Positions 2,961 through 23,742 of a DNA stretch of 40,715 nt are shown in pieces (the first letter of the stretch is position 1; each line of letters begins with the position of its first letter). This stretch comes from Floccifex porci (lineage in GTDB: Bacteria > Bacillota_I > Bacilli_A > Erysipelotrichales > Erysipelotrichaceae). The position numbers were made by a program, and so were the translations under genes. The stretch spans positions 1-40,715 of the forward strand of contig NZ_VUMM01000016.1 in assembly GCF_009696175.1 (NCBI RefSeq). Direction: 5' to 3'. Below the pieces are notes generated by a model. That model had not been told where the DNA came from. It was given only the letters and a program-made list of their open reading frames with translations, and did no database searches.

Positions 2961-3152
2961 ATGAAAAAAGATAATCTTTTATCGAAAGCTTGTTTGCTTG
3001 TTTTTACCTTTTTTATTGCCTTTGCCTTACTCTATGTTTCTTTTTCATTCTGGATGAGTGGAAAGAAAGGATGGGCCATTGGCTTAATTCTTGTTACTAT
3101 TTTACTTCTAATTGGTTCCTATCTTCAATTGTCGATTCGAACGGATGAATAA
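2961..3152 (+). CDS. Small two-helix membrane protein
   Basis: 63 residues with a short basic N-terminus (MKKDNLLSK), a hydrophobic helix at about residues 9-31, a loop with KKGW, and a second helix at about 37-56. AGGA lies 5 nt before the ATG. The gene ends in a good bidirectional hairpin. It follows the acetyltransferase by 39 nt and may be cotranscribed with it. No family is recognised and no function can be assigned. Confidence 0.65.
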   Translation: MKKDNLLSKACLLVFTFFIAFALLYVSFSFWMSGKKGWAIGLILVTILLLIGSYLQLSIRTDE

Positions 3153-3180
3153 AAGGGGGTTTAAAATACCCTCCTTTTAT
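3149..3180. terminator. Bidirectional terminator between converging genes
   Basis: ATAAAAGGGGGT (3149-3160) pairs with ACCCTCCTTTTAT (3168-3180) with one bulge around a 7-nt loop. A/T tracts on both sides let it serve both the small membrane gene and the converging MATE gene, overlapping both ends. Confidence 0.75.
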
Positions 3181-7892: not shown

Positions 7893-8924
7893 TTAATAAT
7901 CAAACTGATGATAGTAACGACGATAAGCTAAATTATGTCTTGTATACAATTCATAATGAGCTGCCAATCTCTCTGTTAGTAAAGCTGTAACGATCCAAGG
8001 GACAACAAATGGTCTGAACTTATCATCCACATCCAAAGCATATTCCTTTGTATCCAGAACAACATATTCTGCATTGATTTTCTTACAGAAGTCTTCAACA
8101 CGATTATCCTGTTTACGATATTCATCTTCTCCTTTAACGATAAATACAGGAACATCTTTTTCAACCAGTTCCAATGTTCCATGGAAGAATTGTGAACTTG
8201 TAACAGGACGTGTACGTACCCATTGCATTTCTTCTAAGATACACATTGAGAACAGTAAAGTTTCACCCCATAATGCACCAGATCCAGTAAAGATTGTATA
8301 TGGTTTATTGTACAACTGTTTTGCGATTTCATCCGCTTTTGGTTCAAATACTTTACGAATGTCCACTAAATTCTTGAAAATATTCTTAATCTGATCTGCA
8401 AAACGTTCATATTCAGGGAATTCATTGCGTTTATTCAGGATACTGTATAGTAAATAAGACTGTAAAACATAAGCATATTCACATTGACCTGTTGTAACTT
8501 TTGCTTCAATCACAATTGAGCATAATTTTCCAACTGGACAATCTTTTTTAGTGAATCCAACAACAGTTGCCCCAATTTCTTTGATCCAAGTTAACGCTTC
8601 TACAATTTCAACTGTTGTACCAGAAGCACTGGAAGTAATAACCAACGAATCTTTTGTCAATTTAGTTGGATGTACTGTATTGGCATCGGCTGCATTGATT
8701 GCATATACTTCCAATGTTGAATATTTATTTAACAAATAATCAAATTGCGCAAATTCAAATTCTGTTCCACCAATTCCTAATAAGAAAACATTTGTAAATC
8801 CTTTTTCAAATACCTGATCTGCAATTTCCTCAACTTCTTTTCTTTGTGCAATAATTGCATCTCCTTCTTTTAAATATTTCTCTTCATCAAATTTGTATAA
8901 TTCTACCTTTTCTGTTACAGACAT
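7893..8924 (-). CDS. SIS-domain sugar-amine phosphate deglycase, FrlB-like
   Basis: 343 residues with two SIS (sugar isomerase) domains. The first has GIGGTEFEFAQ and SSASGTTVEIVEAL. The second ends with FFHGTLELVEKDVPVFIV, which closely resembles the FrlB stretch EFRHGPLEIVE. The tail YELYTRHNLAYRRYYHQFDY matches the FrlB tail (HNPDERRYYGG). FrlB splits fructoselysine 6-phosphate to glucose 6-phosphate and lysine. The resemblance was judged by eye, so the amine partner is open. The gene stands alone, between its own operator module and a terminator, with AAGGAGG before the ATG. Together with the FrlD-like kinase and the PTS it implies Amadori-compound catabolism. Confidence 0.82.
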   Translation of the reverse strand: MSVTEKVELYKFDEEKYLKEGDAIIAQRKEVEEIADQVFEKGFTNVFLLGIGGTEFEFAQFDYLLNKYSTLEVYAINAADANTVHPTKLTKDSLVITSSASGTTVEIVEALTWIKEIGATVVGFTKKDCPVGKLCSIVIEAKVTTGQCEYAYVLQSYLLYSILNKRNEFPEYERFADQIKNIFKNLVDIRKVFEPKADEIAKQLYNKPYTIFTGSGALWGETLLFSMCILEEMQWVRTRPVTSSQFFHGTLELVEKDVPVFIVKGEDEYRKQDNRVEDFCKKINAEYVVLDTKEYALDVDDKFRPFVVPWIVTALLTERLAAHYELYTRHNLAYRRYYHQFDY

Positions 8925-13581: not shown

Positions 13582-14079
13582 TTATATTTGAATCTGATTT
13601 ATATATTTCTCTATTTCTTTTTTTCTATCACTTGAACAATTCTTTAAATATTGAATCATTTCCTTTTGCCAATCAATGGTTGTATCTAAATATTCATATA
13701 TATCTTCTAATGTGATTTTTATATGAAAAGAACTATCAGGTGTATGCAATGTTTTTAAAGCATTAAAATAACATAAATATTCATCTTCATAGAATATATT
13801 ATGATCCAGTAAATCCAGTATATCGTATACATTGATTGTTTCTTTTTTTAAATATTGAATTTTCTGATTTATATTCATAGATTGTATGTCTTTTAATAAT
13901 TTTTTAAATTCTTTTTGATTTATCTGGTCTGGAAAAGAAAGAAAAGATTGACCAATTTGTTTTAATGTTTCTTTGATTACTTTATTTATAATTTTTTTCT
14001 TAAACAAAACCTTTATCGTTTCCATAAATTTATTCACTACTTCAGGAAGATTTTCCAGTTCATTCAAGAATTTTAACAT
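13582..14079 (-). CDS. Hypothetical protein, alpha-helical, 165 residues
   Basis: A charged protein rich in K, E and I, apparently all helical, with no signal peptide or membrane segment. No family is recognised. It is divergent from the Abi gene, with 17 nt between the starts, and shares its base composition. No Shine-Dalgarno sequence is seen before the ATG: the purine-rich stretch in the gap serves the other strand. It could be part of the defence module or a host gene fragment. Confidence 0.5.
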   Translation of the reverse strand: MLKFLNELENLPEVVNKFMETIKVLFKKKIINKVIKETLKQIGQSFLSFPDQINQKEFKKLLKDIQSMNINQKIQYLKKETINVYDILDLLDHNIFYEDEYLCYFNALKTLHTPDSSFHIKITLEDIYEYLDTTIDWQKEMIQYLKNCSSDRKKEIEKYINQIQI

Positions 14080-14096
14080 AGAGAGGATGAAATATC

Positions 14097-14912
14097 ATGC
14101 ATACATATAAACCTTCAAAAACAGTTAAAGAACAAGTTGAATACTTAGAATCGAATAAACGTGTAGTATTTAACGAAATATCTAAGAAAGAAGCAGAAGA
14201 AATACTATTTAAGTATGGATACATAAATGTTATCACCCCTTATAAGCATAGATTTGCAAAAAAAGATAAAGGTAAAGTTGTAAAAGATGAAACAGGAAGA
14301 CACATTTATGAACGTGATGTTGATTTCAAAGAATATTATGACTTATATGTCAACGAAAGAAAAAAGTATCCTACAATTTCTGCTAATGTTATTTATTTTG
14401 AAACAAGATTTAGATCAATATTGTCTTATGCAATTTTAAATAGTACAGACATTAATTGTGATTCTGATCTTATGAATTTTTTGGAGTCGATACGTCTTAG
14501 AATTTCTCAATCTAATAATTATTCTGAAAAAAGATTAGAACACATGAATGAAAGTATTTCGAAATTAGAAAACAATATAGAAAAATATCATGATGTTTAC
14601 TGTTTCTTTGATAATTTGTCGTTAGGAGAATCGCTTACGTTATTTAATGGATTAGACTATAAGACACAAGATAAAATATTCGATAGTTGTAAATCGATAA
14701 ATATTCATTTTAATGTTGATAAAACACCTGATTTTGCTTCAAAAGTTTTTACGTTGGTGTCTGTAAGAAACTGTGTAATGCATTGCAATAGCTTGGAAGT
14801 ATTAAAAAGATTTTTCAATCCAAAGTATAAAACTTTAAGAGACAGAAAAAGTACAAGAACATTTGAATCGATGATAAATTACCTTTCAAACGAAAAAGCT
14901 CACACCGAATGA
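14097..14912 (+). CDS. Abi-family (Abi_2, AbiD/AbiF-like) abortive infection protein
   Basis: A 271-residue protein with the layout of Abi_2 proteins. An N-terminal part begins YKPSKTVKEQVEYLESNKRVVF, followed by ISKKEAEEILFKYGYINVITPYK. Then comes the IYFETRFRSILSYAIL helix (about 99-113), like the family F-E-x-x-L/F-R motif. Near the end VSVRNCVMHC gives R-N-x-x-x-H (R224, N225, H229), the HEPN ribonuclease signature. Such proteins are thought to cut RNA and abort phage infection. GAGAGG lies 8 nt before the ATG, and a terminator starts in the last codons. A structured RNA candidate follows at 15079-15134, as expected for Abi proteins paired with an RNA partner. Confidence 0.82.
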   Translation: MHTYKPSKTVKEQVEYLESNKRVVFNEISKKEAEEILFKYGYINVITPYKHRFAKKDKGKVVKDETGRHIYERDVDFKEYYDLYVNERKKYPTISANVIYFETRFRSILSYAILNSTDINCDSDLMNFLESIRLRISQSNNYSEKRLEHMNESISKLENNIEKYHDVYCFFDNLSLGESLTLFNGLDYKTQDKIFDSCKSINIHFNVDKTPDFASKVFTLVSVRNCVMHCNSLEVLKRFFNPKYKTLRDRKSTRTFESMINYLSNEKAHTE

Positions 14913-14924
14913 TGCGAGCTTTCT
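14894..14924 (+). terminator. Terminator of the Abi gene
   Basis: AAAAGCTC (14894-14901) pairs with GAGCTTT (14916-14922) around a 14-nt loop, followed by a short T-rich stretch. The stem starts in the gene's last codons. Confidence 0.6.
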
Positions 14925-15078
14925 TCCGACCTAGGGTCAATTTATGATTCTATATTACATTAAAATTGAACATTTTTAAACAAAAATTAAATTTTTTTAT
15001 AATTTTATTTAACTTTATTTAAAAAACGCACTTTTTAATCATATATAATCAATCGACAGAATATAGTTTTAAACATAT

Positions 15079-15134
15079 AACCTGACTTTAGAAGTAAAAA
15101 AATGGTGCTAACTTCTAAAGACGGGTTGCCACCC
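15079..15134 (+). ncRNA. Candidate pseudoknot RNA downstream of the Abi gene
   Basis: A perfect 10-bp stem CTTTAGAAGT (15086-15095) / ACTTCTAAAG (15111-15120) has a 15-nt loop. It is extended outward by AACC (15079-15082) / GGTT (15124-15127) across a 3x3 internal loop. The hairpin loop contains GGTG (15104-15107), complementary to CACC (15130-15133) just 3' of the stem, giving an H-type pseudoknot. A TATAAT at 15044-15049 could be the -10 of its promoter on the plus strand; no good -35 is seen. A weaker hairpin, AACAAGT/ACTTGT, lies at about 15145-15160. Strand is not proven; the stem would fold on either. Confidence 0.5.
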
Positions 15135-15171
15135 TCCTATATAAACAAGTTAATACTTGTATATACTACAT

Positions 15172-15247
15172 TGGGGTGCGTAATGGGATTCAAACCCATG
15201 ATAACGGAGCCACAATCCGTTCCCTTGACCACTTGGGTATACACACC
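15172..15247 (-). tRNA. tRNA-His (anticodon GTG)
   Basis: The minus strand folds as a full tRNA. The acceptor is GTGTGTA/TACGCAC with an encoded G-1 (15247) facing C73, the hallmark of tRNA-His. CCA is encoded at 15174-15172. The anticodon arm ACGGA-TTGTGGC-TCCGT has anticodon GTG. The T arm is ATGGG-TTTGAAT-CCCAT. It lies just downstream of a YjcQ gene and its terminator. Its 5' part is copied at 17530-17556. Confidence 0.95.
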
Positions 15248-15251
15248 ATAC

Positions 15252-15275
15252 AAAAAAACCATTCTAAACGAATGG
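15252..15275 (-). terminator. Terminator of YjcQ-1
   Basis: CCATTC (15275-15270) pairs with GAATGG (15264-15259), followed by seven T (15258-15252). The loop contains the YjcQ stop codon. Confidence 0.75.
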
Positions 15276-15605
15276 TGTTATATCTTTAATTTCTTTTAAA
15301 AAGCATTTTGCTTTTTCAAACAAGGAATTATTACATAAATAATCAATTCCTTTTGGTGTAATCTGACAGTTTTCTATATCCGAAATAATAACTTCATTAC
15401 CAAATACTTTAGTAACGTTTACTCCTTCAATATATCTATCTTTTAACAGATGAACGATTATATAATTCCAGTATCTTTCATTTATCTTGAACAGAAAACC
15501 ATCATTTTTTATAAAATCAGGATTTATATTTTCTCCATTTTTTAATTGCATATAAAGATAAGCCAATATTTTATATACAATTACATAATAATCATCTTTT
15601 GCCAT
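15264..15605 (-). CDS. YjcQ family protein (copy 1)
   Basis: A 113-residue protein with the YjcQ-type start MAKDDYYVIVYKILAYLYMQLK. It reads as a small winged-helix-like fold: ...KINERYWNYIIVHLLKDRYIEG and ...CQITPKGIDYLCNNSLF. The family is common in phages and near phage genes; its role is unknown to me. A second copy at 18439-18780 has the same length and about five substitutions. In both cassettes it follows the immunity candidate, which makes it the constant 3' flank of the toxin module. A terminator overlaps its end. Confidence 0.82.
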   Translation of the reverse strand: MAKDDYYVIVYKILAYLYMQLKNGENINPDFIKNDGFLFKINERYWNYIIVHLLKDRYIEGVNVTKVFGNEVIISDIENCQITPKGIDYLCNNSLFEKAKCFLKEIKDITPFV

Positions 15606-15612
15606 TATTACT

Positions 15613-15921
15613 CTATTTATTGTCTAATACATTTTTTATAAAATTATCATCTAATCTTAAATTATATTTTTCAAATAAATAAATATACAAATTATACCAT
15701 CCATATTCTCCTTCTTCATATTTACATGTGTAAGGATAAATTATTTTTTTCGTGAAAGGATCTTTAACCGGTTTAGAACACATAGGACCTTTTTCTGTCT
15801 GTTTTAAATGTTCTAGTATCTTTTCTTTATTTTCTATTGGATTGATCGTAATATACTTATCCGTATTTTCTCTGAATTCTTCTTCACTGATCCATTTGTT
15901 ACAGTATAATATTGATTTCAT
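15613..15921 (-). CDS. Putative immunity protein of toxin cassette A
   Basis: A 102-residue acidic, aromatic-rich protein beginning MKSILYCNKWISEEEFRENT. I choose ATG 15921 because GAGGTGA lies 6 nt upstream; a longer frame to 15954 lacks a site. The start overlaps the end of the toxin gene by 23 nt, and the YjcQ gene follows 7 nt later. Position and coupling suggest that it neutralises the C-terminal toxin domain of the upstream gene. There is no counterpart in cassette B, where a different small gene takes this place. I do not recognise the family. Confidence 0.6.
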   Translation of the reverse strand: MKSILYCNKWISEEEFRENTDKYITINPIENKEKILEHLKQTEKGPMCSKPVKDPFTKKIIYPYTCKYEEGEYGWYNLYIYLFEKYNLRLDDNFIKNVLDNK

Positions 15922-17137
15922 ATAAATCACCTCTTTGGAATAAACAATTTCCATTCACCATATGTTTTATTTCCTTTTCGCATATTCCTTTATCATCTTC
16001 TTGCTTTATCCACAAATCTTTTGTTGGCGCCAGAACATTTTTACCTGTTAAGTTTGCTATTCCCTGTGCAGCTGCTCCACTATTAGCACCAGTTCTGCAT
16101 GAGCATAATCTTATGCTATCATTTTCAAATTTACCATATTTATTTAAAATTTCTGCAATCTCTCTTATTGTATAACTGATTTGTTTTCCATTTGCATCAA
16201 TTACAGCAAAGCCAAATTCATCTCCATGTATGAAAACATCATCATATCCATCTAAAGGAACTACTTTTTTTGCCATATCATATATTCCAGATGGATCATG
16301 ACTGTTAAACAAATTGTTTGTAGATAACTTAATATCTTTTTCTAATTTTATTTTATCATTTGTTAATTCATTTTCATACAATTTATCAATGTTTATTCTT
16401 TTTAATTTTTTATTATAATCATCTACTGTTTTACCTTTACTTATAATTACAGTAATTCGTTCTTTTTTCTCATATTCATTCTCTTCTAACCATGAATTAT
16501 TGCTTTCCCAAATATTTTGTCTACCTTTTTCACAAAAATATTCAACAGTGCAATCACAATTATCATGTCTCTGATATACTTCATGCGGTTCTTGTCCATA
16601 AATATATACACCAGCTAATGATCTGCACCATTCACATGTTTCTGAATGTATTTTCCTTACAATCTTGGCAGCAATTCTAACAGATGCTCTATTAGCTGCA
16701 TTCTGTTTGATATATTCATCAAAAATACTTCTTGTTGAATTTTCTATGGAACGTTTCATTACTTCATCGACTTGATTCCATAATTCATCCCTGTTTATTT
16801 TCATAACCTCATCTTGAAGCACCATTAATTTATTAATGATTGATTCAATCCTTTCCTGATTGAATTTTGTTCTTATGGGGCTTATTCCAATATTTTGTTT
16901 ATAGTCTTGAATTAATTGAACAGTAATGACCAAATCATTGATTAGTTTATGGGCTTCCTTCACGATTGGAATAACTGTTCTTGATAAAACGTTCCAATAT
17001 AGTTTTCCATCTGGCATCGTTTCTTTATTGATGTACTTTAACAAGCATTTCTCTGCATATCTTCCAATTCTTCCCAAAAGAAAAGAGACATCTTCAAATG
17101 ATGACTCTGTGTTCTTTCCTTTTAATATTTCTTGCAA
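15899..17137 (-). CDS. Phage-head-derived (MuF/VG15-like) polymorphic toxin, cassette A
   Basis: 412 residues from the TTG at 17137. Residues 1-215 look like a phage minor-head domain: YWNVLSRTVIP, helices, then CEWCRSLAGVYIY...VYQRHDNCDCTVEY. C168, C171, H191, C194 and C196 may bind metal. After a charged linker (about 215-285), the C-terminus carries VFIHGDEFGFAV (H304-G305) and IRLCSCRTGANSGAAAQGIANLTGKNVLAPT (C345 or C347). This recalls toxin tails with a clan-CD cysteine-peptidase-like His/Cys pair. The N-terminus is probably truncated: TTG follows GAGGG without spacing and a terminator lies 30 nt upstream. Expression is therefore uncertain. The N-terminal part is nearly identical in cassette B. 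Confidence 0.7.
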   Translation of the reverse strand: MQEILKGKNTESSFEDVSFLLGRIGRYAEKCLLKYINKETMPDGKLYWNVLSRTVIPIVKEAHKLINDLVITVQLIQDYKQNIGISPIRTKFNQERIESIINKLMVLQDEVMKINRDELWNQVDEVMKRSIENSTRSIFDEYIKQNAANRASVRIAAKIVRKIHSETCEWCRSLAGVYIYGQEPHEVYQRHDNCDCTVEYFCEKGRQNIWESNNSWLEENEYEKKERITVIISKGKTVDDYNKKLKRINIDKLYENELTNDKIKLEKDIKLSTNNLFNSHDPSGIYDMAKKVVPLDGYDDVFIHGDEFGFAVIDANGKQISYTIREIAEILNKYGKFENDSIRLCSCRTGANSGAAAQGIANLTGKNVLAPTKDLWIKQEDDKGICEKEIKHMVNGNCLFQRGDLYEINIIL

Positions 17138-18438: not shown

Positions 18439-18780
18439 CTAAACGAATGGTGTTATATCTTTAGTTTCTTTTAAAAAGCATTTTGTTTTTTCAAACAAAG
18501 AATTATTACATAAATAATCAATTCCTTTTGGTGTAATCTGACAGTTTTCTATATCTGAAATAATAACTTCATTACCAAATGCTTTAGTAACGTTTACTCC
18601 TTCTATATATCCATCTTTTAACAGATGAACGATTATATAATTCCAGTATCTTTCATTTATCTTGAACAGAAAACCATCATTTTTTATAAAATCAGGATTT
18701 GTATTTTCTCCATTTTTTAATTGCATATAAAGATAAGCCAATATTTTATATATAATTACATAATAATCATCTTTTGCCAT
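18439..18780 (-). CDS. YjcQ family protein (copy 2)
   Basis: 113 residues, differing from copy 1 by about five substitutions (for example I26T, R57G, V66A). It directly follows the 64-residue immunity candidate of cassette B. The terminator hairpin at its end is retained but the following T run is lost, because the DNA below 18433 differs. The strong identity to copy 1 points to recent duplication or gene conversion. Confidence 0.8.
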   Translation of the reverse strand: MAKDDYYVIIYKILAYLYMQLKNGENTNPDFIKNDGFLFKINERYWNYIIVHLLKDGYIEGVNVTKAFGNEVIISDIENCQITPKGIDYLCNNSLFEKTKCFLKETKDITPFV

Positions 18781-19026: not shown

Positions 19027-20142
19027 TCAATATTCCATTTGAATCTTTTTTCCATATAGTGCAAAAATCTCCTTTTTCGTAACTCCTAATTCCATAGTAA
19101 TTATAATTTTATATACTCCTGAATCTTTAGATTTGTTTATATCAAATCCCATGGCAATATCGTTAAACAAAGAAGAATAATCATTTGGTTTGTATCCTAC
19201 TCTTACGAAATCACGAAAATGATCAGAACTAGGTTTCAATAAATAATTTACTATTTTATTTGGATTTATTACAAAATTACTACTTTCTTTAATAATTTTG
19301 ATATCTCTATTTGGAAATGAATCAAAATTTTTATCAATCTGTTGAATTAATTTGTTTCTTTGATTTTTGTTATTTAGATTATACTTTCCTTCAAAAAAAT
19401 TATCATTAATTCTTTTATAATAAACTTTTTTGTCTATTCCTTCTGCCATTATAAAAGCTATTCTTTCTTTTTTCTTGTACTCATTCTCTTCTATGCAAAC
19501 AGTATCACTTTCCCAAACATTTTGTCTACCTTTTTCACAATAATATTCAACAGTACAATCACAGTTATCATGTCTCTGATATACTTCATGCGGTTCTTGT
19601 CCATAAATATATACACCAGCTAATGATCTGCACCATTCACATGTTTCTGAATGTATTTTCCTAACAATCTTGGCAGTAATTCCAACAGATGCTCTATTAG
19701 CTGCATTCTGTTTGATATATTCATCAAAAATACTTCTTGTTGAATTTTCTATGGAACGTTTCATTACTTCATCGACTTGATCCCAAAATTCATCCCTGTT
19801 CATTTTCTATAACCTCATCTTGAAGCACCATTAATTTATTAATGATTGATTCAATCCTTTCCTGATTGAATTTTGTTCTTATGGGACTGATTCCAATATT
19901 TTGTTTATTATCTTGAATTAATTGAACAGTAATGGCCAAATCATTGATTAGTTTTGGGCTTCCTTCACGATTGGAATAACTGTTCTTGATAAAACGTTCC
20001 AATATAGTTTTCCATCTGGCATCGTTTCTTTATTGATGTACTTTAACAAGCATTTCTCTGCATATCTTCCAATTTTTCCTGAAAGAAAAGAGACATCTTC
20101 AAATGATGACTCTGTGTTCTTTCCTTTTAATATTTCTTGCAA
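19027..20142 (-). pseudogene. Frameshifted MuF/VG15-like polymorphic toxin, cassette B
   Basis: Same N-terminal part as cassette A: MQEILKGKNTESSF at 20142, then CEWCRSLAGVYIYGQEPHEV and RHDNCDCTVEYYC. Two single-base changes break the frame. One is near 19950 (EAHKLIND becomes EAQN-stop). The other is near 19805, where an extra base turns EVMKINRDE into EVIENEQG-stop. The last piece (258 residues from ATG 19803, with GAGG upstream) could still be made alone. Its C-terminal tail (IVNYLLKPSSDHFRDFVRVGY...KIIITMELGVTKKE) is unrelated to cassette A and recalls DUF6883-type toxins, unverified. The start is TTG after GAGGA, again without proper spacing. Confidence 0.75.
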
Positions 20143-23360: not shown

Positions 23361-23742
23361 TGGTGGAGGTGAGGAGAATCGAACTCCTGTCTAAACAAAG
23401 TCCCACGAAACAACGTTTACAGCTTATTTCATCTTATAATTTGAATGCCTGGATGAACAGAAGGGAATCATTCAAATCAACCTGAATATTTCAGACTTCC
23501 TTGCGGTCAAAAGGTTATCCTAGCTTCTTTGCCATAACACACATTTAAGAATAAGAAAGCGAAATTCTTAAAAGGGGCTGCAAGTCTGTTTCGACGAATT
23601 AAGCAGCGAAAGCCATGTTTTGGTTAAATCCAAATACATTAGCTAATTTAGTTTTTGCGTTTAATTTAAGTTGGTTTTTACGTGTTCCTTCACGGCTGTA
23701 GTTGGATCCAAACATTTATCTATCGAATGCCTGAACACCCCC
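23361..23742 (-). ncRNA. ssrA: tmRNA (transfer-messenger RNA)
   Basis: The 5' end GGGGGTG (23742-23736) pairs with CACCTCC before the encoded CCA (23363-23361). The T arm GGAGTTCGATTCTCC is present near the 3' end. The tag frame runs 23658-23599 from a GCA resume codon and encodes AKTKLANVFGFNQNMAFAA, then TAA. tmRNA rescues stalled ribosomes and tags the peptides for proteolysis. smpB lies just upstream on the same strand. The 3' end is copied at 17201 and 20224, so it serves as an attachment site for mobile DNA. Confidence 0.97.

Follow-up and report, generated by a model that had tools for sequence, protein, structure and literature searches.

A minimal convergent RNA as putative antitoxin of an AbiF-like HEPN protein in Floccifex porci and its relatives

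Does the Abi-type gene of Floccifex porci have an RNA partner, and if so, where is that partner encoded? We addressed this question in a 40,715-nt stretch of the genome (contig NZ_VUMM01000016.1 of assembly GCF_009696175.1; hereafter, the window), for which a preliminary description had linked an Abi/HEPN gene to a predicted pseudoknot RNA about 165 nt downstream of it. The general idea of a HEPN toxin paired with a structured RNA holds up in our analysis, which found a PbAbiF-like fold and a conserved RNA gene, but the pseudoknot named in that description is not the right RNA, nor is it on the right strand or in the right place.

The protein encoded at 14097–14912 is an Abi_2 protein and a putative AbiF-like toxin. 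The gene and its motif are as follows.

14097–14912, plus strand: gene for an Abi_2/AbiF-like HEPN protein of 271 aa, putative toxin (Pfam, AlphaFold model, 8vz6 match)
14766–14783, plus strand: RNCVMH, the RNxxxH HEPN ribonuclease motif, residues 224–229 (invariant in homologues)

The preliminary description had correctly recognized an Abi/HEPN gene with an R-N-x-x-x-H motif: the ORF matches PF07751 (Abi_2) at 47.3 bits (E = 4e-12; Pfam cut-off 25.6), and R224, N225 and H229 show no variation in an 11-sequence alignment of homologues. Homologues 31–56% identical were gathered from the same order, the class and public genomes, and their hosts include Faecalibacillus intestinalis, Thomasclavelia, Holdemania, Solobacterium and one Lachnospiraceae MAG. 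The AlphaFold2 model of the product has a mean pLDDT of 90, and its top solved structure is 8vz6_A, the PbAbiF dimer with its ncRNA (Foldseek probability 1.00, E = 4e-3; VIA Z 12.4 and rmsd 4.7 over 225 residues, with Z 4.9 for the second chain). VIA matches ranked under 8vz6 (Z < 5) were left uninterpreted, and fold matches to Cas13, which were weak or absent, were counted neither for nor against. Although the fold is alike, the sequences of the two proteins are only 14% identical; a profile search of PDB sequences identified no AbiF, and fold comparison alone revealed 8vz6. Neither PADLOC nor NCBIfam models match the Abi_2 protein, and searches of phage and plasmid records with it returned no match.

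Reading the 3′ flanks of the homologues on the opposite strand revealed a recurrent unit that consists, in order, of −35 and −10 boxes, a 6–7 nt (Y)AAAUR leader, a short hairpin, a purine-rich link and an intrinsic terminator. In the window, this unit forms a candidate sRNA gene that converges on the toxin gene.

14891–14945, minus strand: convergent sRNA gene of ~55 nt, putative antitoxin RNA (63 bits with covariance model R1, as a training sequence; fold; 12/12 loci)
14928–14938, minus strand: sRNA hairpin 1, GACC-CUA-GGUC, 4 bp (compensatory changes among homologues)
14893–14920, minus strand: intrinsic terminator of the sRNA, AGCUCGCA...UGUGAGCU plus U-tract (98% of cells paired in alignment A3; fold)
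14952–14980, minus strand: predicted sRNA promoter, with −35 TTTAAA at 14980–14975, a 17-nt spacer and −10 TAATAT at 14957–14952

The sRNA gene, read from 14945 to 14891, extends 22 nt into the 3′ end of the abi CDS from the opposite strand, and the 3′ arm of its terminator and the U-tract fall within the last abi codons. Among homologues, the terminator enters the last toxin codons or stops just before them, and the predicted RNA start lies 28–56 nt beyond the stop codon, on the opposite strand, in 12/12 intact loci checked. In a distant group of these RNAs, clade 2, the RNA barely overlaps the toxin CDS.

Base pairing, strand and promoter signals all point to a gene for a structured RNA. Hairpin 1 occurs as ten distinct stems (GACC/GGUC, GCAC/GUGC, GCUC/GAGU, GCCC/GGGU, GCCU/AGGC, GGCG/CGCU, GACG/CGUU, AACC/GGUU and two 3-bp forms), in which 38/40 cells are paired versus 25.3 ± 2.5 with shuffled arms (0/20,000 shuffles), a count for which the arms were set by eye and which is to that extent biased toward pairing. 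MAFFT alignment of all 13 sRNAs (A1) misaligned the distant stems, so the clades were aligned separately. In clade 1 (A3), 98.8% of cells are paired, compared with 84.3% after shuffling and 27–50% when slid, and 5/8 terminator pairs have changed on both sides; in A7, a structure-free MAFFT alignment, 88.9% are paired, compared with 64.3% shuffled (0/500) and 30–42% slid, and both sides have changed in 3/4 hairpin pairs. Five cells among the ten distinct stems are G·U, which would become A·C if read on the other strand, and in clade 2 a closing G·U is almost invariant; since these pairs fit the minus strand only, they assign the strand of the RNA. Minimum-energy folds of 17/17 sRNAs have a free leader of 6–7 nt, one hairpin of 3–5 bp and the terminator. 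The best −10 box lies 6–7 nt ahead of the leader in 22/22 copies, and promoter scores over these copies average 9.9/12 versus 7.5 for shuffled sequence, with the promoter in the window (8/12) weak and among the weakest of the set. Furthermore, a promoter-leader-hairpin-terminator descriptor found its expected place in 12/15 homologous loci tested that have the RNA or a variant, missing L016, L106 and L107; its background is 1 match per 1.01 Mb of phage DNA and somewhat higher in these AT-rich loci. The minus-strand sRNA gene is thus well supported by sequence, and it would be transcribed from its own promoter.

Covariance searches tie this RNA to the toxin family. Model R1, trained on seven close copies including that in the window, matched three loci outside its training set, L021, L015 and L014, at the expected site (E = 9e-11, 8e-5 and 2e-4, respectively). 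Over 311 genomes of the order it gave 11 matches above 50 bits, of which 9 lie beside an abi gene or remnant. Eight are at abi homologues, some of them decayed; at L062, the RNA stands beside an abi gene of which an internal deletion has left ~20 codons at the start and ~10 at the end. At L064 and L066, no abi remnant accompanies the strong match. R1 matches below 33 bits were rejected as mostly chance terminators where Abi_2 is absent. A second model, R2, trained on clade 2, found a second tandem RNA copy in L012, an RNA beside a C-terminal toxin remnant in L124 and orphan RNAs in L120 and L122; it did not reach the sRNA copy in the window. Because R1 finds L014 and L015 and the layout is common to both groups, clades 1 and 2 probably constitute one RNA family.

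In the protein tree, RNA-bearing toxins fall in one supported clade (97/96). Eight loci carry the RNA with a dead, deleted or absent toxin gene (L011, L021, L062, L064, L066, L120, L122 and L124). Conversely, the only intact toxins without a detected RNA copy are L003 and L018, members of the clade on a long branch, and L106 and L107 have loose RNA variants only. RNA that outlasts its toxin is therefore common while the reverse is limited to two loci, as one would expect if the RNA were an antidote.

The RNA also occurs on two phage contigs, with no toxin gene nearby. In IMGVR_UViG_3300006217_000025 (L137), an uncultivated phage contig with portal and terminase genes, the sRNA lies at 8841–8892 (R1 50.4 bits, E = 1.5e-10), with 5 nt between it and a tRNA-Ile gene that is one of eight clustered tRNA genes. 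In IMGVR_UViG_3300026549_000172 (L203), an uncultivated temperate-phage contig, it lies at 3112–3170 (R1 59.6 bits), flanked by an HTH gene and an endolysin gene with an integrase close by, and its hairpin stem is the same as that in the window. Both copies keep the GG that follows the hairpin, as do L001, L002, L008 and L009, while the GG is lost in L064, L066 and the pseudogene locus L011. When the phage copy of the sRNA was used to search phage records, and the L009 sRNA to search plasmid records, no match came back. Two further candidates, L138 and L139, came from a degenerate viral pattern for clade 2 and were set aside, as neither R1 nor R2 backs them. In the case of ToxIN, antitoxin-like RNAs are known to occur in phages. 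On the basis of these two contigs, we tentatively suggest that a self-promoted, convergent class of AbiF antitoxin RNA may have been captured by phages, free of its toxin, as an RNA anti-defense factor against AbiF-like HEPN toxins, a proposal that we rate as plausible but somewhat short of probable.

The sRNA differs from the RNA partners of known AbiF systems. An Rfam scan of the window and 31 homologous loci (32 in total) found neither abiF RNA nor any other family at the sRNA. The abiF RNA motif model, RF03085, has no match at E ≤ 10 in 13900–15300 and none at E ≤ 5 or 1 in homologous loci, and as a positive control it does recover the known RCd22 motif in phage phiC2. RF03085 shares with the sRNA its association with Abi_2 genes and a CAAAU that loosely resembles the (Y)AAAU-R leader, but sequence, helix order and gene position are different. 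At L029 (27065–27100), the unpaired CAAAU of the abiF RNA motif precedes a helix strand and is similar to the leader in the window (14945–14939). This likeness possibly reflects a shared docking sequence in a permuted arrangement; it is too short to claim as one.

A close counterpart is AbiF-RCd22 of Clostridioides difficile prophages, in which an Abi_2 protein with RNxxxH is likewise encoded next to a small, structured non-coding RNA that has a promoter and a terminator of its own, and in which RCd22 neutralizes AbiF by direct binding, in cis and in trans (PMC12373285). RCd22 has two RNA motifs, and L012 here has two RNA copies. However, RCd22 is encoded upstream of its toxin in the same orientation, shares a transcript with it through read-through and has RF03085 motifs, whereas the RNA described here lies downstream on the opposite strand, has a promoter of its own and lacks an RF03085 match. 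PbAbiF, too, is neutralized by a bound ncRNA (PMC12737573); the complex (PDB 8vz6) is that of Zilberzwige-Tal et al. 2025, as cited in PMC12373285 and PMC12737573. The AbiF covariance models of these authors, AbiF5_iter3.CM and diverse_rna_xinsi.CM, are named in PMC12804078 and may already cover our sRNA. Type III systems such as ToxIN follow a similar logic, with an RNase toxin restrained by an RNA antitoxin, that would apply here as well. Their antitoxin RNA precedes the toxin gene in a shared operon, as a rule in the form of tandem repeats, and forms a pseudoknot; here, by contrast, the toxin is a HEPN protein and the RNA is convergent, downstream on the opposite strand, present in one copy (two in L012) and folded as a simple hairpin.

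We consider it likely that the locus is an AbiF-like toxin-antitoxin (abortive infection) module with a convergently encoded minimal RNA as its antitoxin. Under this model, the HEPN protein would act as a dimeric RNase toxin. From the other strand, an independent promoter just beyond the stop codon would produce the ~55-nt RNA, consisting of the single-stranded (Y)AAAUR leader of 6–7 nt, the one 4-bp hairpin and the terminator that overlaps the toxin 3′ end; this RNA would bind the HEPN dimer and block its active site, as AbiF ncRNAs do. Should host transcription fail, as when a phage takes over the cell, the short RNA would be the first to disappear, and the toxin would be released. We infer binding and blocking of the dimer because of the RCd22 and PbAbiF ncRNA precedents, the toxin-free phage copies and a level of pairing with the toxin start region that is at chance in most loci (below); transcription of the sRNA, binding between RNA and protein, toxicity and defense are all predictions of this reading. 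Several observations count against it, namely the weak promoter in the window, the intact toxins without RNA at L003 and L018 with the loose variants at L106 and L107, and an RNA that is not RF03085 in a layout unlike known AbiF and type III systems.

One alternative is that the RNA acts as an antisense RNA on the overlapping toxin mRNA. The sRNA is convergent and, where it overlaps the end of the CDS in the window, shows the complementarity to toxin mRNA that marks type I antitoxins; SR6 of the yonT type I system offers a precedent for an antisense antitoxin that overlaps the 3′ end of its toxin gene (PMC5848175). SR6 is about 100 nt long and targets the toxin mRNA, whereas the RNA here is ~55 nt long, has a covarying hairpin and occurs in toxin-free phage copies. 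Perfect cis-antisense pairing has no need of the compensatory changes that keep hairpin 1, the overlap with the CDS is minimal in clade 2, and the two copies in phages lack a toxin gene as a pairing partner and would be useless unless they acted on host copies in trans. Furthermore, pairing with the toxin translation start, a hallmark of type I systems, is not consistent (P < 0.05 at 1/10 loci; P = 0.88 in the window), and the toxin is a HEPN-fold protein of 271 aa in place of the short, usually hydrophobic peptide of that type. We therefore regard an antisense mode of action as unlikely.

Another alternative, which we consider very unlikely, is that the conserved unit simply terminates abi transcription and has no function as an RNA in its own right. 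The hairpin does sit at the expected end of the abi transcript, and simple terminators abound, as most of the low-scoring R1 matches illustrate. But a terminator leaves unexplained the fixed spacing of the −10 box, the conserved leader and the compensated hairpin 1, and it accounts neither for tandem copies nor for autonomous copies in phages.

The weakest candidate is the element that the preliminary description had proposed, a plus-strand stem at 15079–15133 read as an H-type pseudoknot RNA that regulates or neutralizes the Abi protein. Its letters are as claimed: the stem CTTTAGAAGT (15086–15095)/ACTTCTAAAG (15111–15120), its extension AACC (15079–15082)/GGTT (15124–15127), and GGTG (15104–15107) with CACC (15130–15133) are all present, and the stem is more stable than shuffled sequence (z = −3.3). 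We find, however, that it belongs to a mobile element.

15079–15127, no strand: remnant of an IS1634-family insertion sequence, reduced to its two terminal inverted repeats by loss of the interior; outside the system (recurrent ends and transposase)
15172–15246, minus strand: tRNA-His gene next to the relic; outside the system

The stem core, AAAAATGGTGCTAACTTCTAAAGACGGG, recurs at dozens of unrelated sites in the order with 90–100% identity over 25–29 nt, often in at least two copies per genome and frequently close to contig ends. Aligned core copies fall into two kinds. Left ends read ACCTGACTTTAGAAGTT...AAAAAATGGTGCTAA, right ends read ATGGTGCTAACTTCTAAAGACGGG, and the outer segments of one kind repeat those of the other in inverted orientation. 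ORFs adjoining full-length ends encode the DDE transposase domain PF01609 (one above the cut-off and one just below), and NCBIfam assigns the single adjoining ORF that was tested to the IS1634-family transposases (NF033559, E = 4e-99). In the window, whose genome has one copy of the IS1634 element, left and right ends are fused across a common ATGGTGCTAA; both terminal repeats of the family are present while the interior is absent, probably through deletion between short ATGGTGCTAA repeats. The same fused form of ~50 bp occurs in two other genomes, at L031 and L033 (about 1501–1560), possibly reflecting recurrent deletion between the ATGGTGCTAA repeats or a very small mobile derivative. At L034, an ORF (151–978) that by eye resembles the Cas9 N-terminus terminates next to the left end of an IS1634 element, an arrangement that would fit insertion of the IS within cas9 or adjacent to it.

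No link between this element and the Abi gene emerged. Among genomes that contain both an abi homologue and the core at E ≤ 1e-4, the core is never next to abi; it is on other contigs or hundreds of kb away (in G049, for example, abi is on contig 52 and the IS1634 element on contig 34). For 15055–15140, the element was not found at the homologous loci, so the covariation by which the proposal was to be judged is absent, and neither RF03085 nor any other Rfam family matches at the stem, even at E ≤ 10. The pseudoknot is also sterically implausible, as the full 16-bp stem leaves 2 nt (GC) for the loop that crosses the helix. A ToxI-like H-type pseudoknot antitoxin is thus ruled out as a conserved Abi-linked RNA; judged by its sequence, the stem is an ordinary IS1634-family relic unconnected to the Abi gene, and we give the pseudoknot reading almost no credence.

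The surroundings of the locus have features of their own. The tRNA-His gene and a tmRNA gene (23361–23742) bracket a phage-like stretch, and genes of these two kinds are usual integration sites. This stretch includes two YjcQ-family genes (15264–15605 and 18439–18780), each with a sequence behind it that weakly resembles phage protein VG15 (15899–17137 and 19027–19803); the paired genes may represent a duplicated prophage segment. Elsewhere in the window, a glycine riboswitch (RF03166, 130.6 bits) lies on the minus strand at 1433–1609.

AbiF-type toxins have been proposed as the ancestors of Cas13, and one may ask how the RNAs that accompany them have diversified. Our results suggest a new variant within AbiF RNA toxin-antitoxin systems, in which the putative antitoxin is a downstream, convergent, self-promoted RNA of ~55 nt. 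It belongs to an AbiF-fold clade of Erysipelotrichales, other Bacilli and one Lachnospiraceae MAG, and differs from abiF RNA in both layout and structure. Annotation based on RF03085 alone overlooks such Abi_2-associated RNAs, which may sit behind the gene on the opposite strand. The small size of this RNA permits its base-by-base dissection as a toxin partner, and the toxin-free phage copies predict phage RNA mimics that would turn off AbiF-like immunity.
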